Shown in pieces: positions 1 to 13,312 of a stretch of DNA of 64,000 nt. The number at the start of each line of letters is the position of its first letter. The stretch's first letter is position 1. The notes below the pieces were generated by a model. The model made no database searches, was not told where the DNA came from, and saw only the letters and a list, made by a program, of their open reading frames with translations. The DNA is from Plantactinospora endophytica. Lineage in GTDB: Bacteria; Actinomycetota; Actinomycetes; Mycobacteriales; Micromonosporaceae. The stretch lies in contig NZ_BONW01000046.1 of assembly GCF_016862915.1 (NCBI RefSeq), positions 62,001-126,000 of the forward strand, written 5' to 3'. A program made the translations under genes and the position numbers.

Positions 1-1
1 T

Positions 2-97
2 GGCGGAATCTGGTTGAAGTCCGAGGTCCTGGCCTGGGCCAAGCAGCACCGTCGGGCACGGCCGGTGGCGGGCCGGGACGAGGACGAGCCCGGCTGA
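2..97 (+). CDS. C-terminal fragment of a small helix-turn-helix protein (partial, cut by window edge)
   Basis: Frame 2 is open from the left edge to a TGA at 95-97 and encodes the last 31 residues of a protein. The visible GGIWLKSEVLAWAKQH stretch looks like the recognition/wing end of MerR- or AlpA/excisionase-type DNA-binding proteins, where a Trp-rich segment ending in WA is common; the tail is acidic. Too little remains to name a function. Confidence 0.45.
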   Translation, partial: GGIWLKSEVLAWAKQHRRARPVAGRDEDEPG

Positions 98-233
98 CGA
101 CGCGGGCCTGACGACCTCCGTCGATCGTCGAACGCGCCACAGCATCCGTCCGCCTCGATGCGACAGCCCGGTGTCACCTGGGGTTTCGCGGCGGTGCTTG
201 CCCTGTTAACGCGAGCACTCCAAGGTACCCGCC

Positions 234-1760
234 ATGCGGAAGATCAATCGCCGAATCTTCGTCCTAGGTGGACTCGGTGCCGTCGGTACGGCGGCGCTGC
301 CACTCCAGAACGCCCTCGCCGCCACCCCCTACCCGTTCCGGCTGGGCGTCGCCTCCGGTGAACCAGCACCGGACAGCGTCGTACTGTGGACCCGACTCGC
401 CCCGTCGCCGTTGAACGCGGACGGTCAGGGCGGAATGGCCAACGCGGACGTCACCGTCGAGTGGCAGGTCTCGACGAACGAGCGGTTCAGCTCGCTGGTC
501 GCCTCCGGCTCGGTCGCCGCCCGCTACGCCGACGCGCACTCGGTGCACGTGGTCGCCGGTGGGCTCGCTCCGGACGCCGACTACTTCTACCGGTTCCGGG
601 CCCAGGGGCACATCTCACCGGTCGGGCGTACCCGGACCGCACCGGCGGCCGGCAGCTTCGGCCGGGACCTGGTGATGACCTTCGCCTCCTGCGCGCACTA
701 CGAGTCCGGCTACTACACGGCGTACCGGCGGATGGCCGAGGACAACCCGGGCCTCGTCCTGCACCTCGGCGACTACCTCTACGAGGACGCCACCAGCACC
801 GGCTCGGTACGCGAGCACGCCGGCGCCGAGATCGTCTCGCTGGCCGACTACCGCCGCCGGTACGCCCAGTACAAGTCCGACCCGGACCTCCAGGCGGCGC
901 ACGCGGCGGCGCCGTGGCTGCTGGTACCGGACGACCACGAGGTGGAGAACAACTACGCCGGTACGGTGCGGGAGAACAACACCCCGGCGCTGACCGCCGC
1001 ACAGTGGACGGCCCGGCGTACCGCCGCCTACCGCGCCTACTACGAGAACCTGCCGCTGCGGCCCAGCTCGGCGCCGTCCGGCAACAGCATCGGGCTGTAC
1101 CGGCGGATCCGCTGGGGCCAGCTCGCCACCTTCCACATGCTCGACACCCGGCAGTACCGCGACGACCAGGCGTGCGGGGACGGCCGCAAGGTCTGCGCCG
1201 ACGCCGACCTGGCCAGCCGTACGTTGACCGGCGCCGCCCAGGAAGCCTGGCTGCTCGACGGTCTCGGCCAGCAGCTCGGCACCTGGGACATCATGGGTCA
1301 GCAGGTCTTCTTCGCCCGGCAGCTCGACGCGGCCGGGGCGGCCAACATGGACTCCTGGGACGGCTACCGGGCCTCCCGGTCCCGCATCCAGCAGGGCTGG
1401 ACCCAGCGCGGCGTACGCAACCCGGTGGTGCTGACCGGCGACGTGCACCAGGCGTGGGCGAACGACCTCAAGGCCGACTACGCCAACCCGGGTTCGGCAA
1501 CGATCGGCACCGAACTGGTCTGCACCTCGATCTCGTCCGGCGGCAACGGCTCCGCCGACACGGCGATCCCGAACGGGAGCATCAACCCGCACATCAGGTT
1601 CTTCTCCAACCGGCGCGGCTACGTGCGTACCACCATCGGCCGTACCCAGCTCCGGGCCGACTTCCGGGCGGTGGCCAGCGTCACCGAGCACGGTGCCCCG
1701 GTCTCCACCGTCGGTTCGTTCGTCATCGCCGATGGCCGTCCCGGCCTGCAGACCGCCTGA
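234..1760 (+). CDS. phoD: Tat-exported alkaline phosphatase D (PhoD) family protein
   Basis: A 508-residue PhoD-like metallophosphoesterase that hydrolyses phosphomono- or diesters outside the membrane. The N-terminus has a twin-arginine signal (RRIFVLGG near residues 6-13, then a hydrophobic stretch to about residue 30), so Tat export is likely. A PhoD N-terminal domain starts at FRLGVASGEP. The metallophosphatase core shows FASCAH, LHLGDYLYE, PDDHEVENNY and VLTGDVHQAW, which supply the usual metal-binding Asp, Asn and His residues. ATG at 234 follows an AAGG at about 221. A secreted repeat protein follows after 14 bp, so the two probably share a transcript. The length is typical for the family. 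I see no clear PHO box upstream. Confidence 0.93.
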   Translation: MRKINRRIFVLGGLGAVGTAALPLQNALAATPYPFRLGVASGEPAPDSVVLWTRLAPSPLNADGQGGMANADVTVEWQVSTNERFSSLVASGSVAARYADAHSVHVVAGGLAPDADYFYRFRAQGHISPVGRTRTAPAAGSFGRDLVMTFASCAHYESGYYTAYRRMAEDNPGLVLHLGDYLYEDATSTGSVREHAGAEIVSLADYRRRYAQYKSDPDLQAAHAAAPWLLVPDDHEVENNYAGTVRENNTPALTAAQWTARRTAAYRAYYENLPLRPSSAPSGNSIGLYRRIRWGQLATFHMLDTRQYRDDQACGDGRKVCADADLASRTLTGAAQEAWLLDGLGQQLGTWDIMGQQVFFARQLDAAGAANMDSWDGYRASRSRIQQGWTQRGVRNPVVLTGDVHQAWANDLKADYANPGSATIGTELVCTSISSGGNGSADTAIPNGSINPHIRFFSNRRGYVRTTIGRTQLRADFRAVASVTEHGAPVSTVGSFVIADGRPGLQTA

Positions 1761-1774
1761 CAAGGAGCGCCCGG

Positions 1775-3268
1775 ATGATCCCCGTCACCTCACTGCTGGT
1801 CAGCTCCCTGCTGGCAGTACCCGTACCGGCCGCGCCGACCCCCGCCGTCGGCCCGGCCACCCCGCCGCCGCCCGCCAGTACCGCGACCCCGGCCCCCACC
1901 ACCACCCCGGCCGTCCCGACGACGCCGACCCCGACCCGGGGCGGCACCGCGACGCCGACCGCACCGGCGACGCCGACCCGTACCCCGACCCCGGCCCGCA
2001 CCGCGACGCCGGACGGGAGCGGTACGGCCACGCCGACGCCGCCGGCCCGGCGCGTGCCGGCTCCCGCCGAGCTTGCCGTCGCCGCCGCGCCGGTCACCTG
2101 GACCACCGCGAACAGCAACTCCACCGGCGACCAGGACGTGCCGGCGATCGCCGCCAACCGCAACGGCCGGGTCGCGGTGGTCTGGGAGGACGACCGCGAC
2201 GACACCGCACCCGAAAGCGACCTCCACTCGGAGATCTACCTGCGGGTCTTCAACAACGGCAGCCCGGTCTACGAACTGAAGCTCTCCGCCGGAGGCACCG
2301 CCGGCACCAACTGGAAGCACGTCACGCCGGACGTCGGGATCGACGACCGGGGCAACGTGGTGGTCGTCTGGGCGGACGACCCGGACGGCAACGGCTTCTA
2401 CAACGTGCCGTACCGGGTGGTGTCACCGACCGGCACCGTGCTCGCCTCGGGCCGGGCGAACGCCTCCGCCGACGGCCAGCAGCTCTACCCGAGGGTGGCC
2501 GTCGACCCGGACGGTGCGCCGAACAGCGCCACGGCGGTCGGCTTCAGCGTGGTGTGGGAGGACGTCCAGGGCACCGCACCGGCGACGGTCCGGGTCGCCG
2601 GCTACACCAACACCACCACCAAGGCGTACGAGGTGCTGGCCAGCCAGTCGACCGGCGAGCACCACCGGCCGGACGTGGCGGTCTCCGCCTCCGGTGACGC
2701 GCTGGTGGTCTGGGACGAGGACGGCGACGCGAACGGGGCGTACAACGTCGGCCTGGCCCGGTTCGCCCGGACGAACGGGGCGGTGAACCTGTCCCGGCGG
2801 GTCGCCAACTCGGCCACCGGTGGCCAGCAGCGCCGTCCCGCGATCGCGGCCAACTTCAACGGCGACTTCACCGTCGCCTGGGAGTCCGACCACACCGGCA
2901 CCGCCGGGGTGTGGCTGCGCTCGTTCACCAGCGCGGCGACGGCCCGGCACAACGACGCCGAGATGGCCACCGGCCCGGCTACGGTCGCGCCGACGGTCGG
3001 CATCGACGACCAGGCCAACGCGGTGGTCGGCTGGACGGTGGCGACCGCCGCCCAGGACGTCGCGGCCCGCGGCGTCAACCCGGACGGTACGTTCACCGGC
3101 CGGCTGCCGAGCCAGGTGCTCGGGCAGACCACGACCGGGCGGCAGGAACAGATCGCGCTCACCTCGTCGCCGTGGGGCGAGATCAGCGTCAGCTACACCG
3201 ACGACAACGACGGCAACTCGTTCGACCAGGTCATCCTCGGCGTGGACGGGTCCAACTCGGACTGGTAG
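1775..3268 (+). CDS. Secreted Pro/Thr-linker protein with WxDD-type repeat (propeller-like) domain
   Basis: A 497-residue protein. ATG at 1775 follows an AAGGAG at 1762-1767, so I prefer it to the much longer open frame that runs back through phoD. Residues 1-20 form a signal peptide (MIPVTSLLVSSLLAVPVPAA). About 80 residues of Pro/Thr/Ala-rich linker follow, and then a region with repeated VVWEDD, VVWADD and VVWDED blocks each about 60-65 residues apart. Such blocks are typical of beta-propeller or FG-GAP-like extracellular proteins and may bind calcium. No catalytic motif is visible. It is probably co-transcribed with the phosphatase upstream and ends at a hairpin. Confidence 0.7.
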   Translation: MIPVTSLLVSSLLAVPVPAAPTPAVGPATPPPPASTATPAPTTTPAVPTTPTPTRGGTATPTAPATPTRTPTPARTATPDGSGTATPTPPARRVPAPAELAVAAAPVTWTTANSNSTGDQDVPAIAANRNGRVAVVWEDDRDDTAPESDLHSEIYLRVFNNGSPVYELKLSAGGTAGTNWKHVTPDVGIDDRGNVVVVWADDPDGNGFYNVPYRVVSPTGTVLASGRANASADGQQLYPRVAVDPDGAPNSATAVGFSVVWEDVQGTAPATVRVAGYTNTTTKAYEVLASQSTGEHHRPDVAVSASGDALVVWDEDGDANGAYNVGLARFARTNGAVNLSRRVANSATGGQQRRPAIAANFNGDFTVAWESDHTGTAGVWLRSFTSAATARHNDAEMATGPATVAPTVGIDDQANAVVGWTVATAAQDVAARGVNPDGTFTGRLPSQVLGQTTTGRQEQIALTSSPWGEISVSYTDDNDGNSFDQVILGVDGSNSDW

Positions 3269-3283
3269 CGAGGACGGTGCAGG

Positions 3284-3315
3284 GTGGGCGCGTATCACGA
3301 CTGGTGCGCGCCCAC
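3284..3315 (+). terminator. Hairpin downstream of the phoD/propeller operon
   Basis: GTGGGCGCG at 3284-3292 is perfectly complementary to CGCGCCCAC at 3307-3315, with a 14-base loop. It starts 15 bases after the stop codon. There is no T-tract, which is common for actinobacterial terminators. Confidence 0.5.
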
Positions 3316-3545
3316 GTCCCGCACTTCGGGTCGGAGCTGCCGGCCGGACAATTCAACCGGGAAACGGAACGGCACGCCGGAATTGGGCCGACACAATCGG
3401 TCGACCCGGTCTGTCGGATTGGATTACCGCACCCTGTTACGCCCCCACCACGACGGAATTCCCCGTTCGACCGAGCCGTACGCGACCGCCGGTCGAATGG
3501 ACGGGCACCATTCGGCTACCCGCTGTCAGGTTCGCGTCACGGCAC

Positions 3546-3574
3546 TTGTCCGGACCACAGTGGACTGATAGAAA
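3546..3574 (+). promoter_or_regulatory. Candidate promoter of the RHIM-like operon
   Basis: TTGTCC at 3546-3551, a 17-base spacer and TAGAAA at 3569-3574 give a plausible -35/-10 pair about 95 bases ahead of the first start codon. The -10 matches only partly, so this is weak. Confidence 0.25.
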
Positions 3575-3668
3575 CATTCCCTGCTCGACGGCGATACAGT
3601 CCAGACGAGAACCGCAGCACCGTCACCACTCCGCCTCGCAATCTCCGCGCAGCAGGGAGCACGACCTG

Positions 3669-4061
3669 ATGGATCCCATCGCCATTGTGGTGACCGCGTT
3701 GGTGGCCGGTGCCGCCGCCGGAGTCTCGGGCGCCGCGTCGTCGGCGGTCCAGGACGCCTACACCGGGCTGTGCGAGGTGGTACGAAACCGGCTGGGCAGC
3801 GGCCGGGGCGGACACGGTCGGCCCGCCGAGATCGTCGACGCGTACCGCTCGGATCCGGTCGGCCAGCACGACCGGATGGTGGCGGCGCTGACCACGGCCG
3901 GCGCCGACCAGGATCGCGCGCTCGCCGAGGCGGCACTGCGGGTACTGGCGCTGACCTTCCCCGGCAGTGCCGACACGGTCGCCAGGTACGCCGTCGACCT
4001 CCGCGACGCCCGAGGCGTATACGTGGGCGACCACGGCACCCAGCACAACACCTTCTCCTGA
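3669..4061 (+). CDS. Small adaptor-like protein with C-terminal RHIM/BASS3-like amyloid motif
   Basis: A 130-residue protein. ATG at 3669 has a GGGAG about 10 bases upstream. The N-terminus is hydrophobic and Gly/Ala-rich (MDPIAIVVTALVAGAAAG) and leads into an amphipathic helical region. The extreme C-terminus carries GVYVGDHGTQHNTF (residues 116-129). The V-x-V-G-D-x-x core resembles the RHIM of RIPK3-type kinases and the bacterial amyloid signalling sequence likened to RHIM (BASS3). From memory, small actinobacterial proteins of this architecture are annotated as RIP homotypic interaction motif-containing. A nearly identical motif opens the next protein (43-56 there), which suggests motif-to-motif partnering at the membrane. 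Whether the N-terminal half is a membrane-active effector (Bell/HeLo-like) is speculation. Confidence 0.75.
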   Translation: MDPIAIVVTALVAGAAAGVSGAASSAVQDAYTGLCEVVRNRLGSGRGGHGRPAEIVDAYRSDPVGQHDRMVAALTTAGADQDRALAEAALRVLALTFPGSADTVARYAVDLRDARGVYVGDHGTQHNTFS

Positions 4062-4062
4062 G

Positions 4063-5319
4063 GTGGCAAGCCGACCGGAGGGCCACGGCGGCCCCGTCGA
4101 CGCCACCGACGGGCCGGACGAGGCCGTGACCGGTCCCCGGGGCAGGGTCCTGGAGCGGGCCGACTCGGTCGACGCCCGGCACGGCCAGGGGATCCTGATC
4201 GGCGACCACGGACACCAGCACAACGTGTTCCGGCTGCACCTGCCGCGCAGCGTCCGGATCGCGCTGCTGAGCGCCATCGTGCTGGTGCTGCTCGTCGGCA
4301 CCGGCTGGGTGACGGTGACCTGGGTGCTGCCGCAGTTCGCGCCGACCTACAAGACCGAGTTCCTGATCGACACGACCGCCGGAGGCGACGGCGTCGGCAC
4401 CATCGCCGAATCACTCAAGACGGTGATCGACAATTCCGGCGACAGTGACGCGCTGGCCCTGCGCCGGTTCGGCGGTGAATGCGGCGCGCAGGACAACACC
4501 AGTCAGCTCGTCGGATTCGGCACCGACAACCGACAGGAGATCAGCGACGCGGTCAGCGGAATCGGCCAGGGTTCCAAGGCGACGTTGCAACGCGGCATCG
4601 TCGAGGCGGTGGCGGATTTCTCGAAACCGTTCGCGCAGCGGGCCAAGCAGGTGAACCGGATCATCGTGGTCACCCGGAACGGTACGGACGCCTGCGACGA
4701 GGACACCGGATTCGTGGAGAAGCAGATCCGGGACCGGATCGCCGCCGCCGGGCTGTCGATCGAGTTCCGGATGATCGGCTACCAGGTACGCGACGACGAG
4801 CGGGACCAGCTCACCCAGATCGCCACCGGTTCCGGCGCCCCCGACCCGATGTTCGTCGACACCCCCGGCCAACTGGACGCCGCCCTGGACTGGTTCACCA
4901 ACATCGAGCCGGTGCTGCGCAACGCCAAGGAGATCGTCGACATCCTCAACCCGGCCGTCCAGCGGGTCAACAGCGCCGTCAAGGCGGTCACCGACGGCCG
5001 GCTCGACACCGCCGAACGTACCCTCGACGGTGCCCGGGAGGTGCTGTCGCGCACCGACACGGAGTTCGAGGACCTCCAGGCCCGGGCGAAGACCGCCACC
5101 GCCCGGGACATCCATGGTCGGGCGTCCCGGTTGCGTTCCCAACAGCAGCGGGTGGTCGACAGCGCCGACGACCTGCTGCGTACCGCCCGCTCCGGTAACC
5201 CGCTGGGGGAGAAACACGCCGCCTTCGAACGGGTCGCCACCGACTACAACACCGAGGCGGACGCGATGAACCAGGCACTGGCCACCCTCCGCGCCAAGGC
5301 TCCGGCAGGTACCCGATGA
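4063..5319 (+). CDS. Membrane-anchored vWA-like protein with N-terminal RHIM/BASS3-like motif
   Basis: A 418-residue protein if it starts at GTG 4063, one base after the previous stop. GTG 4126 with a GGACGAGG upstream is a good alternative that keeps every domain. The motif GILIGDHGHQHNVF (43-56) matches the adaptor motif at 9 of 14 positions. One transmembrane helix follows (about 66-88), then a vWA-like domain (about 98-290) with FLIDTT, LALRRFGGEC, KATLQRGI and IIVVTRNGTDAC. The usual DxSxS of the MIDAS is degenerate, so metal binding is uncertain. Residues 300-418 are charged and probably helical. The predicted topology puts the motif inside and the vWA domain outside. The stop overlaps the next start (ATGA), so translation is coupled. 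Confidence 0.72.
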   Translation: MASRPEGHGGPVDATDGPDEAVTGPRGRVLERADSVDARHGQGILIGDHGHQHNVFRLHLPRSVRIALLSAIVLVLLVGTGWVTVTWVLPQFAPTYKTEFLIDTTAGGDGVGTIAESLKTVIDNSGDSDALALRRFGGECGAQDNTSQLVGFGTDNRQEISDAVSGIGQGSKATLQRGIVEAVADFSKPFAQRAKQVNRIIVVTRNGTDACDEDTGFVEKQIRDRIAAAGLSIEFRMIGYQVRDDERDQLTQIATGSGAPDPMFVDTPGQLDAALDWFTNIEPVLRNAKEIVDILNPAVQRVNSAVKAVTDGRLDTAERTLDGAREVLSRTDTEFEDLQARAKTATARDIHGRASRLRSQQQRVVDSADDLLRTARSGNPLGEKHAAFERVATDYNTEADAMNQALATLRAKAPAGTR

Positions 5320-6509
5320 CGACCGGGACCGGGTCTTCCCGCACCCGGCGTCGGCGCTTCCTGCTGATCGGCGCGGCGGTGCTCGTCGTCGTGCTGGCGG
5401 CCACCGCCGTCCTGGTGGTCCGCGCCATCCCGGCCTACCGCACGACGCTGCTGGTCGACACCTCGGTCGGCGCCGGCGGCGACGACTTCGCGGCCGTCGC
5501 CGGTGCGGTGAGCGCGGCGGCCCAGAACAGCGCGGACGGCGACGCGCTCGCGCTGCGCCGGTTCGGCGGAGCCTGTGACAGCGCCGGCAACACCGAGCAG
5601 GTCGTGGAGGTCGGCACCGGCCAGGCGCGGAAGATCGGCGATGCCGCCCGCGCCCTCACCCCCGGCGGGCAGCCGACGCTGCTCGACGGCATCCTCGCGG
5701 CGATCGACGACTTCGCCCGGCCCTATCCGTTCAGGGGCAGCGAGGGTAACCGGATCATCGTGGTGTCCCGGCACGGGGTCGACGGCTGCAACGCCGACCA
5801 CGCCGCCGTCGCCGCCACGATCCGGGAGCGCGTCGAGGACGCCGGGCTCACCCTCGACTTCAGGTTCGTCGGCTTCCAGGTCCCCGCCGAGCAGCGCCCG
5901 GTGCTGACCCAGGTCGCCACGGCAACCGGGGCGCCCGAGCCGGTGTTCCCGGAGAACGCCACCGACCTCACCTCCGTACTCGTCCGGTTCACCATCCCCG
6001 AGTCGCCGGACGCCGCTCCGGTCGCGATACCCACCCCCGACCCGACCGCCGACTGGACCCCCTACCGGAACGCCCAGAACGGGTACAGCCTGCGCTATCC
6101 GCCGAACTGGCTGGTCGAGGAGTGCGAGACACAGGTCTGGTTGGCGCACATCCGCGACCTACTGCCCGGCTGCCTGGGCACCGACTTCTTCTTCTACCTC
6201 GTCCAGATTCGAGTCGACGCGGCCGACCAGGCATACACGGGTCCCTACGACGAGGACACCTACGACAAGATAGAGATCCGGGACGTCACCGTCGACGGCG
6301 TTGCCGGGAAACGCCATTCCGCCATCGTCGCGAAGGAGCCTCCCGTGGGCACGGACAGCCCGGGCGACATGGTCGTCCGGTACGTCCTGCCCGCGAACGG
6401 CCGGGTGTACACGATCTATTACCGGAACAATCCGAGCTCGGCCGGCGCCACGAAACTCCTGGAGGAGTTCGACTTGTTGATCACGAAGACCCTCACCTTC
6501 GAAGGGTAG
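5316..6509 (+). CDS. Membrane-anchored vWA-like paralogue with C-terminal PsbP-like domain
   Basis: A 397-residue protein whose ATG overlaps the preceding stop by four bases. A short basic N-terminus (RTRRRR) precedes a transmembrane helix (about 15-38). The vWA-like region (42-225) is clearly paralogous to the upstream protein: LLVDTS, ALALRRFGGAC, QPTLLDGI and IIVVSRHGVDGC align in order. After a Pro-rich linker a C-terminal domain (246-397) opens with W-x-x-Y ... NGYSLRYPPNW, the signature of PsbP/MOG1-fold lipoproteins. It has no RHIM-like motif, so it would sit in the complex through the extracellular domains. The stop lies nine bases from the convergent dgt stop. Confidence 0.68.
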   Translation: MTTGTGSSRTRRRRFLLIGAAVLVVVLAATAVLVVRAIPAYRTTLLVDTSVGAGGDDFAAVAGAVSAAAQNSADGDALALRRFGGACDSAGNTEQVVEVGTGQARKIGDAARALTPGGQPTLLDGILAAIDDFARPYPFRGSEGNRIIVVSRHGVDGCNADHAAVAATIRERVEDAGLTLDFRFVGFQVPAEQRPVLTQVATATGAPEPVFPENATDLTSVLVRFTIPESPDAAPVAIPTPDPTADWTPYRNAQNGYSLRYPPNWLVEECETQVWLAHIRDLLPGCLGTDFFFYLVQIRVDAADQAYTGPYDEDTYDKIEIRDVTVDGVAGKRHSAIVAKEPPVGTDSPGDMVVRYVLPANGRVYTIYYRNNPSSAGATKLLEEFDLLITKTLTFEG

Positions 6510-6518
6510 GGGCCGGTA

Positions 6519-7787
6519 TCACGCGCCCGGTGACCGGCCGGTGGTCAGCCGCCGGTGCCAGGTCACCGCGGCCGGGTCGGTGAGCGAGGCGACCTGGTCG
6601 ACCACCACGCGCAGCCGGGCGGCGTCGTCCGGCGCCACCTTCCACAGTGGTGCGAAGACCGGATCGAGCGCGTCCGGTGCCCGGGTCAGCAGCGCCGCCA
6701 CCAGCTCGGTCAGGATCTCCCGCTGGCGTTCGTACCAGTCCTGGGCGCCGGGACGACGCATCACGTAGCGCAGCGCCATTCCCTTGAGCAGCGCACACTC
6801 GGCCCGGATGTGCCGGGGCACGACCAGTTCGGCGGCGTACCGGCGCAGTGGGCCTTCGCCGTGCCGCTGCTCGGTCGCCTCGACCGCCGCCGCGACGAAA
6901 CGACCGGTCAGCACGCTGGTGCTCGCCTTCAGGGCGGCCAGCGCCCGGTGACTGCCGTCGTAGTCGTAGAGCGGGGCCAGCACCGGGTCGGCGAGCAGCC
7001 TGTCCAGCGTCCCGGCCAGGTCGTCGGCGGACTCCGACGAGTACCGACCGGCGACGTCGGCACAGAGCGCGGCCCGCTCGTCGGCGTCGGCCCGCAACTG
7101 CGCGAGCCGGAGTCGCAGGTAGCCGCCGTGGATGCCGTCCTCGACGTCGTGCACCGAGTACGCCACGTCGTCGGCCCAGTCCATCACCTGGGCTTCGAGG
7201 CAGCGTACGTCGCCGTCCGGGGCGCCCCGGCGCAGCCAGCCGAAGGTGTCGGCGTCGTCGGCGTACACCCCGAACTTGGGCTGGCCCGGTCGGCGTGACC
7301 AGGGGTATTTGCAGGTGGCGTCGAGGGCGGCCCGGGTCAGGTTGAGTCCGGCGGAGGTGCCTTCGGGTGCGTACACCTTGGCTTCCAGCCGGGTCAGCAC
7401 CCGGAGTGTCTGCGCGTTCCCCTCGAAGCCGCCACAGCCGGCGGCCAGCGCGTCCAGCGCGGCCTCGCCGTTGTGCCCGAACGGCGGGTGCCCGAGGTCG
7501 TGCGCCAGCCCGGCCACGTCCACGATGTCCGGGTCGCAGCCGAGCCGGCCGCCCATCTCCCGGGCGATCTGGGCCACCTCCAGCGAGTGGGTGAGCCGGG
7601 TCCGCAGGAAGTCGTCGGTGCCGGCGGTGTGCACCTGGGTCTTCGCGGCCAGCCGCCGGAACGCCGCCGAGTGCAGCACCCGGGCCCGGTCCCGCTGGTA
7701 CGGGCTGCGCCCGTAGCCGCTGTCCTTCGCCGGCTCGGTGACCCGACGCTCCGCGTCCGGCTGGCTGATCACGCCATCGATCTTCAC
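6519..7787 (-). CDS. dgt: Deoxyguanosinetriphosphate triphosphohydrolase-like protein (HD domain)
   Basis: A 422-residue Dgt-family enzyme that cleaves dNTPs to deoxynucleosides and tripolyphosphate. Motifs in order: [20 protein letters not shown] at the N-terminus, [15 protein letters not shown], the metal-binding HD in [15 protein letters not shown], and [16 protein letters not shown]. The open frame extends upstream over the VOC gene, but that part is a shadow. I use GTG at 7787; GTG at 7772 is an alternative. It belongs to nucleotide-pool control and is a normal actinobacterial housekeeping gene. Confidence 0.9.
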
Positions 7788-7806
7788 CCGGCCGACCCCG
7801 GCACCG

Positions 7807-8169
7807 TCAACCCCGCTGGGCGAGTACGCAGAACTCGTTGCCCTCGGGGTCGGCCAGCACGGTCCAGCTCTCGTCCGGCGACTGCCCGACGTCGACGTGC
7901 CGGGCACCCATGTTGACCAGCCGCTCGATCTCGGCCTCCCGGTCCGCCGGGCGGAGGTCGATGTGCAGCCGGTTCTTCGTCTCCTTGCCCTCCGGCACCG
8001 GCACGAAGACCAGGCCGGGCAGCACGTCCGGGGCCCGGCGGATCTCCACCTCGGCCGGCAGCTCGGCGACGATCTGGTAGCCGAGCGCCTCGGCCCACCA
8101 GCGCGCGAGCCGGGCCGGATCGGTGGCATCGACCACCAGGTTCTCCCACACGCTGCCCATGGGCCACAC
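7807..8169 (-). CDS. VOC/glyoxalase-like domain protein
   Basis: A 120-residue single-domain protein with the paired beta-alpha-beta-beta-beta modules of the vicinal oxygen chelate superfamily: [18 protein letters not shown] at the start, [11 protein letters not shown] in the middle and [13 protein letters not shown] at the end. These are typical of the glyoxalase_6-like group. The substrate is unknown. ATG 8169 (MWPMG) or ATG 8160 could start it. It lies 19 bases upstream of dgt on the same strand and may be co-transcribed with it. Confidence 0.82.
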
Positions 8170-8625
8170 CTCCGTTACGAGGGAAACGAAGTTCGCGTGT
8201 CGACCAGGTTACGCCCGGGTTCCCGACTCGGGTGCGCCAACGATCGCCCGACACACCACGCGATTGACCTGCGCCTGCGGACACAACCGCCGAACAGCCG
8301 AGAGTTGCCGGACGATCGCCGATCGTCACGGGACGGCGCCCGGACTGGGCCCGGTGTAGCGTGCCGGAGTCGGATGGTTACCGGGCGGGGGACCATCGAC
8401 CCCGGCGGCGGTGGGTGCGCGGCCCAGCGGCGATCCACCGGACGCGGCAGCCCGATCCCGAGCGGCGGTGACCAGGTCGGACGACGACGTGGCGCGACGC
8501 CCGGGCAACCGGGCGACGCCGTAGGCCACCGGGCGACGTCGAGCGGCAGCGTAGCCACAGGCGGGAAAGCGACGGCACCGAGCAAGTTTCAGCGGCACGG
8601 ACCAACGCTAAGGAGAAAGACACCG
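8170..8625. other. 456-bp divergent intergenic region
   Basis: It separates the VOC gene from the roadblock gene. I see no credible gene. It contains the perfect palindrome at 8311-8327 and a TAGCGT hexamer at 8357-8362 that could be a -10 for the rightward gene. Confidence 0.5.
8311..8327. promoter_or_regulatory. 17-bp perfect palindrome, operator candidate
   Basis: GACGATCG and CGATCGTC flank a single central base. It sits about 40 bases ahead of a possible -10 (TAGCGT, 8357-8362) for the roadblock gene. No cognate regulator is obvious. Confidence 0.3.
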
Positions 8626-9132
8626 GTGAATACTGATGCCGCCCTGCTGGCCGAACTGCACCGGCTGCGACGTACCGTACCGGAGATATCGGGTGCCGTG
8701 CTGGCCGCCGTGGACGGTCTGCTGGTCGCCAGCGACCTGTCCGGCGCCGATCCGCACCACATCGCCGCGCTGTCCGCCGCCGGTCTCGGGATCGGTGACC
8801 GCTTCGCCCATCTGGTCGGGCACGGGCCGCTCCGGGAGTCGGTGATCCGTGGCGCCGAGGGCTGCGTGGTCGTCTACCCGGCCGGCGAGGACGCGATCCT
8901 GACCGCCGTGGTGCCCCCGGAGACCGACCTGACCCGGCTGCACGCCGAGGCCCGCCCGGCCGCTCAGCGACTCGGCGCGCTCTGGGCCGCCGTCCGGCAG
9001 CCGTCGGTGGCGACCGCGATCCCGCCGACCACCGACCCGGACGCGCCGCTGGCCACCCGTACGCCGATGGCCGCCCTGCCCGCCGGCCTCTGGTCCGAGA
9101 CGGGCGGCTGGCGCTCCCCCGGCCGCCAGTAA
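8626..9132 (+). CDS. Roadblock/LC7 domain protein
   Basis: A 168-residue protein. GTG at 8626 follows an AAGGAG at 8610-8615. The Roadblock/LC7 fold is visible in the first 120 residues: LHRLRRTVPEISGAVLAAVD, GLLVASDL, the GxGDRFAHLVG segment, GCVVVYPAGEDAILTAVV. The C-terminal 40 residues are Pro/Ala-rich. In actinobacteria such proteins usually accompany a small GTPase, a DUF742 protein and a nitrate-sensor-like kinase (the conservon). None of those is here, so this is an orphan member whose partner is unknown. Confidence 0.8.
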   Translation: MNTDAALLAELHRLRRTVPEISGAVLAAVDGLLVASDLSGADPHHIAALSAAGLGIGDRFAHLVGHGPLRESVIRGAEGCVVVYPAGEDAILTAVVPPETDLTRLHAEARPAAQRLGALWAAVRQPSVATAIPPTTDPDAPLATRTPMAALPAGLWSETGGWRSPGRQ

Positions 9133-9247
9133 CCGCCCCGGCGCCCCGGGGCGCACCGTCGCGGCCGGTTGTCCGACGGCAGCTCCGGCAGCCGTCCGGA
9201 GCCGCCCCCGGCTCGGCGCCCCGGCCGCACCGCTCCGCCGGAGGGGG

Positions 9248-9667
9248 TCACGTACCGGGCGTCGGCTCGACCGGTCGGTCGTCGTAGCGGCTGCGGGACA
9301 GGTCGATGTCGGCGACGTGCCGGTCGGCCCACTCGGTGACGCTCGCCAGCACCGGCAGCAGGCTCCGGCCCAGCTCCGTCAGCCGGTAGCCGACCCGTAC
9401 CGGGACCGCCGGCTCGACGGTCCGGGCGACCAGGCCGTCACGTTCCAGTCCCCGGAGGGTCTGGGTGAGCATCTTCTGACTCGCCCCGGCGATCGCCCTG
9501 GCCAGCTCGGCGGAGCGGCGGGGGCCGTCGGCGAGCTCCTTGAGCACCAGGGCCACCCACTTGTCCCCGAGCACGGCGATCACCCGCTGGGTCGGGCAGT
9601 CCGCCAGCCGTTCCCGGTGGTCGGCCCGGTCCCGCGCCCGGCGCTGCGCGGCGGTCTGCGTGGTCAT
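9248..9667 (-). CDS. HxlR-family winged-helix regulator with conserved N-terminal cysteine
   Basis: A 139-residue regulator. ATG at 9667 has a GGAGGT seven bases upstream; the longer open frame is ignored. The HxlR signature is clear: DCPTQRVIAVLGDKW, then LKELADGPRRSAELARAI and KMLTQTLRGLERDGLVAR. Relatives such as YodB, HypR and QorR sense quinones or oxidants through this N-terminal Cys, so redox control is a reasonable guess. It is divergent from the oxidoreductase at 9787 across a 119-bp region with a perfect palindrome, which makes that gene the likely target. Confidence 0.87.
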   Translation of the reverse strand: MTTQTAAQRRARDRADHRERLADCPTQRVIAVLGDKWVALVLKELADGPRRSAELARAIAGASQKMLTQTLRGLERDGLVARTVEPAVPVRVGYRLTELGRSLLPVLASVTEWADRHVADIDLSRSRYDDRPVEPTPGT

Positions 9668-9689
9668 CGGGTACCTCCGCGTTCCTTGG

Positions 9690-9703
9690 GCACCTCGAGG
9701 TGC
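9690..9703. promoter_or_regulatory. 14-bp perfect palindrome between hxlR-type gene and oxidoreductase
   Basis: GCACCTCGAGGTGC lies 22 bases upstream of the regulator start and about 27 bases before TAGCTT (9731-9736), a possible -10 for the rightward oxidoreductase. The position suits an operator controlling both divergent genes. Confidence 0.5.
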
Positions 9704-9786
9704 GTACTCCCGGGTCCTGCCCGCCGAACCTAGCTTTGGCCGGGGCGGCGCGACCAGTCGCCGCCGGACGGGACGGAGTGGCACGG

Positions 9787-10431
9787 ATGGAGACGATCGG
9801 AATACTCGGCGCCGGCAACGTGGGCCGGGCGCTGGCGACCCGGCTGCACGAGGCGGGTTGTCGGGTACTCGTGGGGGTGCGCGACCCGGACCGTCCGCCG
9901 CTCTGGCTCGACGGCCCGGCCGACGGCCCGCGCCGAACCGGTCTGCCGGAGGCGGCCTCGGCCGCGATCGTGGTGAACGCGCTGCCCGGCGCGGAGTCGG
10001 TACGCGTGCTGCGCCCCCTGCGCCCGACCCTCGCCGGTGCGGTACTCGTCGACGTCGCCAACGCGGTCGAACTGGGCCCGGACGGCCTGGCCGGCGCGCT
10101 CTGCTATCCGGGCGGCAGCCTGGCCGAGGAGATCCAGCGGACGCTGCCGGAGACCTCGGTCGTCAAGACGCTCAACACGGTCGGCCCGGCCGAGCTGATG
10201 ACCGATCCGACCAGCCTGGCGGCGCCGCTGTCGGCGTTCCTGTCCGGGGACGACGGGGAGGCGAAGGCGCTCGTCGCCGGCCTGCTCGGGAAGCTGGGCT
10301 GGCCGGCGGAGTGGATCGTCGACCTGGGGGCGCTGTCGACGGCCTGGTGGCCGGAGAGCTTCGTCCTGATGGTCCGCCCGCTGGTGGCGGCGCTGGGCCC
10401 GGTGCCGTTCGGCCTGGCCGTCGCCCGCTGA
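9787..10431 (+). CDS. NAD(P)-binding oxidoreductase, F420-dependent NADP reductase-like
   Basis: A 214-residue Rossmann protein. GxGxxG appears as IGILGAGNVGRALA at residues 3-16, followed by VLVGVRDP, VVNALPGAES, VLVDVANAV and VVKTLNTVGPAELM. This order matches the F420:NADP oxidoreductase-like family, whose members move hydride between NADP and F420 or reduce related substrates. ATG at 9787 is the only sensible start. Control by the divergent HxlR protein is likely. The gene is convergent with ppdK and shares a strong hairpin with it. Confidence 0.8.
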   Translation: METIGILGAGNVGRALATRLHEAGCRVLVGVRDPDRPPLWLDGPADGPRRTGLPEAASAAIVVNALPGAESVRVLRPLRPTLAGAVLVDVANAVELGPDGLAGALCYPGGSLAEEIQRTLPETSVVKTLNTVGPAELMTDPTSLAAPLSAFLSGDDGEAKALVAGLLGKLGWPAEWIVDLGALSTAWWPESFVLMVRPLVAALGPVPFGLAVAR

Positions 10432-10440
10432 CGCGCAGTC

Positions 10441-10510
10441 GAGCATCGAGACGCGTACCTACGACGAACGAGCATCGAGACGCGTACCGACGGCGGACGG
10501 GTGTCGAGAC
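10441..10510. repeat. 29-bp direct repeat, two copies plus a degenerate third
   Basis: GAGCATCGAGACGCGTACC occurs at 10441-10459 and 10470-10488, with a decayed copy near 10501-10510 (GTGTCGAGACG). It sits just after the oxidoreductase stop and ahead of the ppdK terminator. Confidence 0.6.
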
Positions 10511-10528
10511 GTGGCGACGATCGACGGG

Positions 10529-10582
10529 CGTCGGCCCGGGACCGGTGGGAACGGCGTTGGTCCCACCGGTACCGGGCCGACG
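10529..10582. terminator. Long bidirectional terminator-like hairpin
   Basis: Bases 10529-10550 pair with 10561-10582 over 22 bp with one mismatch and a 10-base loop. It lies between the convergent oxidoreductase and ppdK, 22 bases from the ppdK stop, and could serve both. Confidence 0.7.
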
Positions 10583-10603
10583 AGTGTGGGGAGGCGGTGG
10601 CGT

Positions 10604-13312
10604 TCAGCGGCTGTCGGAGCCGGTGGACTCGACGACCGCGCGGCCGGCCTCCAGCCGGGCGACCGGCACCCGGAACGGGGAGCAGGAGACGTAGTCCAGC
10701 CCCACCTCGTGGAAGAAGTGCACCGAGTCCGGGTCGCCGCCGTGCTCGCCGCAGACGCCGAGCTTGAGCCCGGGGCGGGCCGCCCGGCCCTCGTCGGTGG
10801 CGATCCGGACCAGCCGGCCGACCCCGTCGGCGTCGATCGACTCGAACGGCGAGATGCCGAAGATGCCCAGTTCCAGGTAGCGCCAGAAGAAGGCGCCCTC
10901 CACGTCGTCCCGGGAGAAGCCCCAGCCCATCTGGGTCAGGTCGTTGGTGCCGAAGGAGAAGAACTCGGCCGCCTCGGCGATCTGCCCGGCGGTGAGCGCC
11001 GCCCGGGGTACCTCGATCATGGTGCCGATCAGCACCTCGACGGCCTGCTCCCGGGTCACCTCCGCGATGATCTTCTCGGCCTCGGCGCGTACCGTCTCCA
11101 GCTCCTGCACGGCGCCGACCAGCGGCACCATGATCTCGGGCTTCGGGCTGCCACCGGCCCTGGCGCTCTCCACCGCCGCCTCGACGATCGCCCGGACCTG
11201 CATGGCGAAGAGTCCCGGGATGACCAGGCCGAGCCGGACGCCGCGCAGGCCCAGCATCGGGTTCTGCTCGTGCATCCGGCGTACCGCGCTGAGCAGGGCC
11301 TCGTCCCGGGCGGCGTCCTCGCCGCGCTCGTGCGCGACCGCGACGTGCACGGCCAGCTCCTCCAGCGAGGGCAGGAACTCGTGCAGCGGCGGGTCGATCA
11401 GCCGGACGGTGACCGGCTGACCGTCCATCGCCCGGAAGACCTCGCCGAAGTCGGCCCGCTGCAACGGCAGCAGTTCGGCCAGCGCCGCCTGCCGCTCGTC
11501 GTCGGTGCGGGCCAGGATCAGCCGTTCGACCAGGGAGCGCCGGTCACCGAGGAACATGTGCTCGGTGCGGCACAGGCCGATCCCCTCGGCCCCGAACCGC
11601 CGGGCCCGGGCCGCGTCCTCGCCGGTGTCGGCGTTCGCCCGGACCCCGAGCCGCCGCTTGGCGTCGGCGTGCGTCATGAGCCGGTGTACGGCGGCCACCA
11701 GCGGATCGTCCGTGCTCTGCCCGTCGACGGTGCCCTCGAAGTACCGCACCACCTCGGACGGCCAGACCGGCACCTCGCCGAGGTAGACCTTGCCGGTGGT
11801 GCCGTCGATGGAGACCACGTCCCCCTCGGAGATCGTCTGGCCGTCCACGGTGAACTTCCGCCCCCGGACGTCGACGTCGAGCGAGTCGGCACCGCAGACG
11901 CAGGTCTTGCCCATGCCCCGGGCGACCACGGCGGCGTGGCTGGTCTTGCCGCCGCGCGAGGTGAGGATGCCGCGTGAGGCGATCATGCCGGGCAGGTCGT
12001 CCGGGTTGGTCTCCCGGCGGACCAGGATGACGTCCTCACCGGCGTCGGCGAGTTCGACCGCCCGCCTCCCCTCGAAGACGACCTTGCCGACGGCCGCCCC
12101 CGGCGAGGCGCCGATGCCGGTGGCCAGCGGGGTCAGGTCGGCGTCGAGTCTGAACCGGGGGAACATGAGCTGGGCGAGCTGGGCGCCGTTGACCCGGTGC
12201 AGTGCCTCGTCCAGGTCGATCAGGCCCTCGTCGACGAGCTGGGCGGCGATCACGAACGCGGCGGCGGCGGTGCGCTTGCCGACCCGGGTCTGCAACATCC
12301 ACAGTTTGCCGCGCTCGATGGTGAACTCGATGTCGCAGAGGTCGCGGTAGTGCCCCTCCAGCCGGGCCATGATGGCGAGCAGTTCGTCGTACGCCCGCTT
12401 GTTCAGTTCTTCGAGCTGTTGCAGCGGTACGGTGTTGCGGATGCCGGCCACCACGTCCTCGCCCTGGGCGTTGGCCAGGTAGTCGCCGTAGATGCCCTGC
12501 GCACCGCTGGCCGGGTCGCGGGTGAACGCCACCCCGGTGCCGGAGTCCGGCCCGAGGTTGCCGAAGACCATCGCGACGACGTTGACCGCGGTGCCGAGGT
12601 CGGCGGGGATCCGCTCCTGCCGGCGGTAGAGCACGGCCCGCTCGGCGTTCCACGACTCGAAGACCGCGTTGATGGCGAGTTCGAGCTGCTCCCGGGGCTG
12701 TTGCGGGAACTCCCGCCCGGTGTGCTTCCGGAAGATCGTCTTGTACGCGTCGACAAGCGCCCGCAGGTCGTCCGCGTCGAGGTCCAGGTCGTTCTCGGTA
12801 CCCTTGGCCCGCTTGGCGTCGTCGAGGGCGTGCGCGAAGTCCTCTCCCGGTACGTCGCAGACGGTCTTGCCGAACATCTGGATGAGCCGGCGGTAGGAGT
12901 CCCAGGCGAAGCGCTGGTTGTCGCCGGCCTGCGCGGCGAGTCCGGCGACACTGTCGTCGTTGAGCCCGACGTTGAGCACCGTCTCCATCATGCCGGGCAT
13001 CGAGAACTTGGCTCCGGAGCGGACCGAGACCAGCAGCGGGTCACCGGGCTCGCCGAGCCGCCTGCCCATCGCCTCTTCCAGCGCGGACAGGTGCGCGCCG
13101 ATCTCGTCGGCCAGCCCGGCGGGTTGGCTGCCGGTGCTCAGGTACGCCTGGCAGGCCTCGGTGCTGATGGTGAAGCCGGGTGGTACGGGCAGCCCGAGGT
13201 TGGTCATCTCGGCCAGGTTGGCGCCCTTGCCGCCGAGCAGGTCCTTGAGGTCCTTGTTGCCCTCGGTGAAGTCGTAAACGTACTTGTGTCCCGCCATCTG
13301 CTGCGCTGTCAA
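10604..13312 (-). CDS. ppdK: Pyruvate, phosphate dikinase
   Basis: A 902-residue enzyme that interconverts pyruvate, ATP and phosphate with phosphoenolpyruvate, AMP and pyrophosphate. The N-terminal ATP-grasp domain starts with LLGGKGANLAEMTNLGLPVP. The swivelling domain carries the phosphohistidine in GGKTSHAAVVARGMGK. The C-terminal PEP/pyruvate barrel has LGVCGEHGGDPDSV and the end motif DYVSCSPFRVPVARL. I choose TTG at 13312 because GGGAGGG stands eight bases upstream; ATG 13297 lacks a ribosome-binding site. Length and domain order are standard. Its role is in gluconeogenesis and the PEP-pyruvate node. Confidence 0.96.
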   Translation of the reverse strand: MTAQQMAGHKYVYDFTEGNKDLKDLLGGKGANLAEMTNLGLPVPPGFTISTEACQAYLSTGSQPAGLADEIGAHLSALEEAMGRRLGEPGDPLLVSVRSGAKFSMPGMMETVLNVGLNDDSVAGLAAQAGDNQRFAWDSYRRLIQMFGKTVCDVPGEDFAHALDDAKRAKGTENDLDLDADDLRALVDAYKTIFRKHTGREFPQQPREQLELAINAVFESWNAERAVLYRRQERIPADLGTAVNVVAMVFGNLGPDSGTGVAFTRDPASGAQGIYGDYLANAQGEDVVAGIRNTVPLQQLEELNKRAYDELLAIMARLEGHYRDLCDIEFTIERGKLWMLQTRVGKRTAAAAFVIAAQLVDEGLIDLDEALHRVNGAQLAQLMFPRFRLDADLTPLATGIGASPGAAVGKVVFEGRRAVELADAGEDVILVRRETNPDDLPGMIASRGILTSRGGKTSHAAVVARGMGKTCVCGADSLDVDVRGRKFTVDGQTISEGDVVSIDGTTGKVYLGEVPVWPSEVVRYFEGTVDGQSTDDPLVAAVHRLMTHADAKRRLGVRANADTGEDAARARRFGAEGIGLCRTEHMFLGDRRSLVERLILARTDDERQAALAELLPLQRADFGEVFRAMDGQPVTVRLIDPPLHEFLPSLEELAVHVAVAHERGEDAARDEALLSAVRRMHEQNPMLGLRGVRLGLVIPGLFAMQVRAIVEAAVESARAGGSPKPEIMVPLVGAVQELETVRAEAEKIIAEVTREQAVEVLIGTMIEVPRAALTAGQIAEAAEFFSFGTNDLTQMGWGFSRDDVEGAFFWRYLELGIFGISPFESIDADGVGRLVRIATDEGRAARPGLKLGVCGEHGGDPDSVHFFHEVGLDYVSCSPFRVPVARLEAGRAVVESTGSDSR

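Follow-up and report, generated by a model that had tools for sequence, protein, structure and literature searches.

The window analysed here, a stretch of 64,000 nucleotides from Plantactinospora endophytica (contig NZ_BONW01000046.1, positions 62,001 to 126,000), displays at 3669-6509 a head-to-tail run of three genes, which we call A, B and C. Gene A encodes a small protein with a C-terminal BASS3 motif, gene B a predicted membrane protein with a related motif close to its N terminus, and gene C a second membrane protein, paralogous to B, in which the motif is absent. We consider it reasonably probable that the three form a transmembrane amyloid signalosome, in which the membrane receptor B would template the Bell-type effector A through amyloid. 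An earlier inspection of the letters alone (the sequence-only reading) had described the genes as close-coupled, and its coordinates and sequences proved correct: a single base separates A from B, and the end of B shares an ATGA with the start of C. The features are the following (lengths in amino acids, aa).

3669-4061 (+), gene A: ATG start, TGA stop, 130 aa; putative Bell-type effector, hydrophobic and rich in Gly and Ala near the N terminus, with a BASS3 motif at the C terminus
3675..3734 (+), hydrophobic N-terminal segment of A: approximately residues 3-22, from a hydropathy scan
3993..4055 (+), BASS3 motif of A: residues 109-129, VDLRDARGVYVGDHGTQHNTF; 14/21 identity to a published Frankia BASS3 peptide
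4059..4065 (+), A/B junction: TGA of A, 1 base, GTG of B; translational coupling likely
4063-5319 (+), gene B: GTG start, 418 aa; predicted single-pass membrane receptor with motif, membrane helix, external vWA domain and helical stalk
4189..4230 (+), BASS3-like motif of B: residues 43-56, GILIGDHGHQHNVF; model strands 43-46 and 53-56, at low confidence
4246..4338 (+), membrane helix of B: residues 62-92 (model); the more positive flank is the motif side
4348..4863 (+), vWA domain of B: residues 96-267; two Cys (C140 and C211) invariant across the aligned B and C proteins
4864..5295 (+), helical stalk or coil of B: residues 268-411 (model)
5316..5319 (+), overlap of the B stop and the C start: ATGA
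5316-6509 (+), gene C: 397 aa; motif-less vWA membrane paralogue of B
5364..5420 (+), membrane helix of C: best hydropathy window, residues 17-35
5442..5996 (+), vWA domain of C: approximately residues 43-227, aligned to B
6048..6506 (+), C-terminal outer domain of C: matches no family; the Actinokineospora copy differs and is propeller-like by eye

The sequence-only reading had noticed that the last 14 residues of A match residues 43-56 of B at nine positions. The count holds but the placement is shifted by one, since a Ser follows A 116-129 (GVYVGDHGTQHNTF), the segment that pairs with the B motif; none of 20,000 shuffles of B reached nine identities. A profile built from 38 Bell-family tails, with the window's A and its nearest relative excluded, gives 32.4 bits for A and 8.6 bits for B, and 28.1 and 14.7 bits for the corresponding proteins of the nearest relative. 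Four B orthologues from another genus scored 11.1, 5.0, 5.0 and 2.8 bits, and the orthologue from Actinokineospora, which carries another motif, did not match this profile. Among 700 open frames of the window A and B alone exceed 1.4 bits, and none of 5,000 shuffled B sequences attained 8.6 bits, the best reaching 7.3. When reading frames were reversed, a 40-tail profile gave a maximum of 4.4 bits over 4,934 frames; in a larger control of 11,612 reversed frames, scored on the 38-tail profile, four had at least 5 bits (best 8.5), against 113 forward frames. The profile score of B is thus not decisive alone, and the case for B rests on its adjacency to A, its identity with A and the conservation of its motif.

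Judged by its sequence, the tail motif of A is BASS3, a bacterial RHIM-like amyloid signalling motif, through which A may form amyloid. It is identical at 14/21 positions to the Frankia BASS3 peptide VDLRDAKGVQVGDGNVQINRF (9/21 for B), a peptide described in a passage of PMC8086366 as amyloid by attenuated total reflectance Fourier-transform infrared spectroscopy and Congo red. The V-x-V-G core, likened to RHIMs in the sequence-only reading, corresponds to the G-[IV]-x-[IV]-G core of the RHIM (PF12721) of RIPK1, RIPK3, ZBP1 and TRIF, and Pfam RHIM was matched at E<=1 by six of ten A-family proteins (best E 0.0014, with 18.5 bits vs a curated cut-off of 20, and below cut-off wherever scores were inspected) and by one of six B proteins (E 0.021). 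Unlike those RHIM proteins, the window's A and B give no Pfam hit, lack the core Gln and come with neither kinase nor TIR. The BASS3 sequence pattern can be recognised in both proteins apart from that Gln, and the two motifs lie in adjacent genes, at the C terminus of the effector and near the N terminus of the receptor. EAD10 was also considered for the tail of A and discarded, as relatives of A reached at most 15.4 bits vs a cut-off of 24.1. The peptide pattern GV[QY][VIL]GDH[NG] is also encoded, independently of this locus, in 21 viral-contig stretches, none of them with a Bell relative; phage-borne decoys are possible.

Upstream of its motif, A has its best 19-residue hydropathy window at residues 4-22 (mean 2.08), that is, a hydrophobic helix segment ahead of the BASS motif. 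Passages of PMC7889193 outline Bell as small and helical, one helix being hydrophobic, with membranes as its hypothesised target, and BASS motifs as common to Bell effectors and NLRs (NOD-like receptors); the sequence of A fits this description of a Bell-type effector. An A-family match was found in 83/300 genomes of the window's bacterial family, in 26/297 genomes of a second family and in 5/392 genomes across the phylum, and 40 of the 65 matches first examined have a tail of the form AKGVQVGDHNTQTNTF by strict pattern. Relatives of A adjoin P-loop/STAND genes. Searches of A, B and C themselves in Pfam, NCBIfam and PADLOC returned nothing usable.

In protein B the motif is far better conserved than what precedes it. 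Across six aligned B proteins pairwise identity is 0.18 for residues 1-30 and 0.36 for residues 31-42, and it rises to 0.70 in the motif, close to the values of the vWA domain (0.78) and the stalk (0.71), with G43, G47, H49, Q52, N54 and F56 invariant; the motif is accordingly kept in B orthologues, one of the points on which the sequence-only reading had made itself refutable. A structural model of B (mean pLDDT, the per-residue confidence score, 74.9; four sequences) shows an unstructured tail, two low-confidence motif strands, a helix at 62-92, a vWA fold at 96-267 and a stalk at 268-411. Nowhere is the protein more hydrophobic than in the helix that follows the motif, and the motif-side flank of this helix carries the more positive net charge in all seven B proteins measured. 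Foldseek matches of the model include integrin I domains, TEM8 and VWF A3, and Pfam VWA is matched at E<=1 in four of six B proteins (best 3e-7; L018 27.9 bits vs a cut-off of 23.8), with no match at this threshold in the window's B or in L017. By Pfam in its relatives and by predicted fold, the outer domain of B is a vWA domain, in which the metal site DxSxS reads DTTAG (DTSVG in C, DLSAG in Actinokineospora), the second Ser missing. The positive motif-side flank and the two Cys that are invariant in the vWA domains of B and C (C140 and C211) are in keeping with a tail inside and a vWA domain outside. B is thus predicted to be a single-pass membrane protein with an external vWA domain and the motif in its cytoplasmic tail, the architecture proposed by the sequence-only reading. 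That reading had also called such a partner unusual for bacterial amyloid signalling, and indeed no P-loop pattern and no NB-ARC, NACHT or STAND family in Pfam was found in the B proteins, VWA being found instead. Weak matches of B to Exonuc_VII, phasin and the like, for the most part within the helical stalk, were dismissed as coil noise. No match to B was found in plasmids at 1e-5, and the more distant vWA matches in G046, G470, G482 and G503 show no motif by eye.

Gene C lies directly 3' of B in 7/7 loci seen. As the sequence-only reading had it, C is a paralogue of B with a membrane helix, the same vWA outer domain and no motif; its description of the last domain as PsbP-like was not supported, since no PsbP family was matched in six C proteins, nor PsbP among solved structures, at E<=1. 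The last domain differs between the window's lineage and Actinokineospora. By analogy with the fly system discussed below, C could be a brake like PGRP-LF, or a ligand-binding co-receptor. A third vWA paralogue of the B/C type, motif-less and with a different last domain, is found in genome G113 (L022:9355-10737), near a gene that is Hsp70-like by eye.

The B orthologue of Actinokineospora enzanensis (L114, 53% identical) displays HNTVSGSHAENIIQAGVVKGGLFR where the BASS3 motif stands in B, by its pattern a candidate for another BASS family. The best other matches of the L114 motif in that genome are weak: one (E 0.79) is to the C-terminal end of a protein of 261 residues, the second (E 3.28) to the N-terminal region of an ATPase whose AAA and NACHT hits stay under threshold. 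The change of motif at this position suggests, from sequence comparison, that the tail of B is an exchangeable slot for amyloid-type signalling motifs. The 261-residue Actinokineospora protein, cyclase-like by eye with no Pfam hit, ends in HNVMNGVHTGTAIQVGHLHGGLHNN, which weakly resembles the L114 motif (L159:7148-7930, reverse strand).

We then compared the distributions of the two proteins. The six genomes with a full-length B all fall within the 83/300 with an A-family match (G084 by a tail match only), with a hypergeometric probability of 3.9e-4 that is uncorrected for kinship, and an A-family match is likewise missing from five genomes of the window's genus that lack B. B is followed by C in four genomes that belong to another genus, with no A within 19.5 kb. 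Proteins with a BASS3 tail are encoded elsewhere in the same four genomes: G047 has a Bell protein, G084 a two-helix protein, and G067 and G098 have both a Bell protein and a divergent two-helix one. B is absent from a fifth genome of that genus, where the Bell tail at the locus examined is without BASS3.

A survey of gene neighbourhoods, which the sequence-only reading had suggested, was carried out on 82 regions, mostly A-family matches picked by score and tail coverage and therefore a non-random sample, in which L017, L023 and L024 (the window) were known beforehand. L154 had no Bell match and 19 of the 81 others were excluded because they lacked the C-terminal motif, leaving 62 loci, a few of which match the Bell profile mainly via the tail (L146 is a two-helix protein). 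An open frame scoring at least 5 bits on the 38-tail profile within 600 bases was counted as a motif-bearing neighbour; such a neighbour was found in 42 of the 62 BASS3-tailed Bell loci, and none within that distance in the other 20. By text pattern 23 of the neighbours belong to a P-loop class and six to the WWxA STAND type; five are predicted single-pass membrane proteins (L017, L024, L076, L086 and L150) and eight are other, namely proteins that join a STAND-like part to three or four membrane helices (L099, L107, L109 and L153), two-helix proteins with a C-terminal motif (L111 and L112) and the unclassified L065 and L140. Pfam, run on example partners, gave NB-ARC and TPR in L062 and L096 and NPHP3_N in L067 and, weakly, in L099. 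The similarity between adjacent motifs exceeds that of shuffled pairs (mean 9.76 vs 8.63 of 17, sd 0.18; 0/20,000), the loci being related to one another.

In the second family, for which flanks of only 1.5 kb were covered, the 16 distinct motif-tailed Bell loci comprise five with a P-loop neighbour, two with WWxA and three with a membrane protein (L166, L167 and L175, the last called by eye at a hydropathy of 1.55, below the limit of 1.7); the sole other motif frame of L164 and L180 is unclassified, and four loci have none within 1.5 kb. L150, which is the same as L128, also belongs to this family. Motif-bearing predicted single-pass membrane proteins beside Bell can therefore be listed at L076:6946-7605, L086:6877-7896, L150:6864-7508, L166, L167 and, by eye, L175. 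Their outer parts, other than the vWA pair, match no Pfam family at threshold in the three tested, some stand behind Pro/Thr-rich stalks, and those of L150 and L166 belong to partners that are alike.

Two further kinds of BASS3 protein were encountered. Small proteins that end in a BASS3 motif and by eye contain two hydrophobic helices, divergent from a Bell gene or alone, lie at L111:6149-6427 (reverse strand), L112:6782-7225 (forward) and L146:6063-6395 (forward), that of L111 matching Pfam RHIM with an E of 0.0016; their sequences make a second kind of BASS3 effector possible. In L069, L099, L106, L107, L108, L109 and L153 the BASS3 motif, a STAND-like domain and three to four membrane helices occur in one protein (with a weak match to the Pycsar TM effector in L099, E 0.022), and proteins of the L069/L099 type may be fusions of receptor and membrane effector. 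Around A, B and C in the window there is a PhoD-like phosphatase at 234-1760 and, on the opposite strand, a dGTPase-like gene at 6519-7900 (both by eye), and a similar gene lies 3' of C in G113 (L017). No RNA family matched window 1-12000 at gathering score, and a scan of 3250-6560 gave no promoter and a single terminator-like site that did not exceed shuffles.

The A-B pair closely follows the BASS3 Bell/NLR amyloid signalosomes of multicellular bacteria, in which, in passages of the published accounts (PMC7889193, PMC8086366, PMC9815663), a Bell effector with C-terminal BASS3 adjoins a gene with a matching motif near its N terminus. Unlike in those systems, no nucleotide-binding domain was found in B, which has a membrane helix, an external vWA domain and a motif-less paralogue instead. 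The passages seen in print describe bacterial amyloid signalling for intracellular NLR receptors, and a literature search over titles, abstract openings and passages turned up no non-NLR membrane receptor with a BASS motif, although one may exist in print. The EACC1 two-gene membrane conflict systems, with their effector-associated domains (EADs), share in the portions published in PMC7159879 (Kaur et al. 2020) a small membrane component, a second gene and a homotypic adaptor logic; unlike in these, A-B-C has no caspase and no EAD at threshold.

A further likeness is found in insects. In the Drosophila receptor PGRP-LC, the RHIM-like motif lies on the cytosolic side of the membrane. In the PGRP-LC/Imd pathway, as presented in passages of PMC9496462, a receptor whose RHIM-like motif lacks the core Gln acts on a motif-bearing partner, this cryptic RHIM (cRHIM) forms amyloid, and PGRP-LF, which like C is a membrane paralogue that has the outer part and lacks the motif, attaches to the outer part of PGRP-LC, whose multimerisation it is proposed to prevent. 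Unlike the insect system, B has a vWA and not a PGRP domain, and the partner is a Bell effector and not a death-domain adaptor; the parallel is that of an analogue, and we claim no homology beyond the RHIM-like motif. As the fly cRHIM is reported to form amyloid without the core Gln, the Tyr of A and the Leu of B do not exclude amyloid.

In the mechanism that we propose, B would be a membrane receptor whose cytoplasmic tail holds little beyond the BASS3 motif, with the vWA domain and the stalk outside, and C would pair with it as a co-receptor or a brake. An outside signal would cluster B and gather the tails, which would nucleate a cross-beta fibre; this fibre would template the BASS3 tail of A, whose Bell domain would then oligomerise at the membrane and cause cell damage or death. 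Several results count against this mechanism. Four of the six B loci have no nearby Bell gene, and the coupling and co-occurrence statistics ignore relatedness. The 8.6 bits of B are about those of the best reversed frame, three of its orthologues score 5.0, 5.0 and 2.8 bits, the window's own A and B gave no match in the Pfam RHIM search, and the pair is atypical in its core, where Gln is replaced by Tyr in A and Leu in B. Structure prediction of A from its single sequence is too uncertain (mean pLDDT 45, helices at low confidence), and the charge rule, which fits most membrane partners, has the motif-side flank of L086 more negative and is ambiguous in L167.

Three other explanations were weighed. 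B could be a tether or antidote whose motif captures A at the membrane and blocks Bell oligomerisation, so that loss or shedding of B, rather than clustering, would free A. The tightly spaced A-B operon is what toxin-antidote pairs display, and Drosophila Pirk, which bears a cRHIM, is a negative regulator in the relevant passage of PMC9496462; nevertheless B is receptor-like, with its external vWA domain, its stalk and a co-receptor C whose last domain varies, Bell is not encoded nearby in four of the genomes with B, and an N-terminal motif is the receptor's in the BASS literature, as far as its passages go, all of which leaves this explanation unlikely. Clearly less probable still is a motif that acts as a homotypic docking tag, by which A would be constitutively recruited to B without cross-beta amyloid and would have a structural or regulatory role, no killing being involved. 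The missing core Gln of A and B would suit it, as would the fact that the Bell killing role is worded as a hypothesis in a passage of PMC7889193, but BASS3 peptides and GFP fusions give amyloid or foci, which two proline mutants do not, according to passages in print, and Drosophila receptors without the same Gln are reported to form amyloid (PMC9496462). The last explanation, in which B and C would be a common vWA pair of the envelope, serving adhesion or stress, with a chance or decaying resemblance in B, is very improbable: C and L022 are motif-less and a reversed frame scores nearly as high as B, but 0/5,000 and 0/20,000 shuffles and the different motif of the Actinokineospora copy speak against it, and the conservation of the motif, far above that of the preceding tail, brings it close to refutation.

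The amyloid signalosome thus remains the reading that we favour for A, B and C. We also advance, more tentatively and a little short of calling it probable, the existence of a bacterial class of membrane receptors that would carry an exchangeable amyloid motif tail (BASS3, or another in Actinokineospora) and varied outer domains and would nucleate Bell across the membrane, with C-like motif-less paralogues as co-receptor or brake, a counterpart of the PGRP-LC/PGRP-LF/Imd logic. If the proposed mechanism is true, a membrane-receptor tail made of the motif only would let bacteria turn an outside event into the same amyloid switch. It would likewise provide a bacterial parallel to PGRP-LC and RHIM signalling, and a small system that would open amyloid templating across the membrane to direct study.

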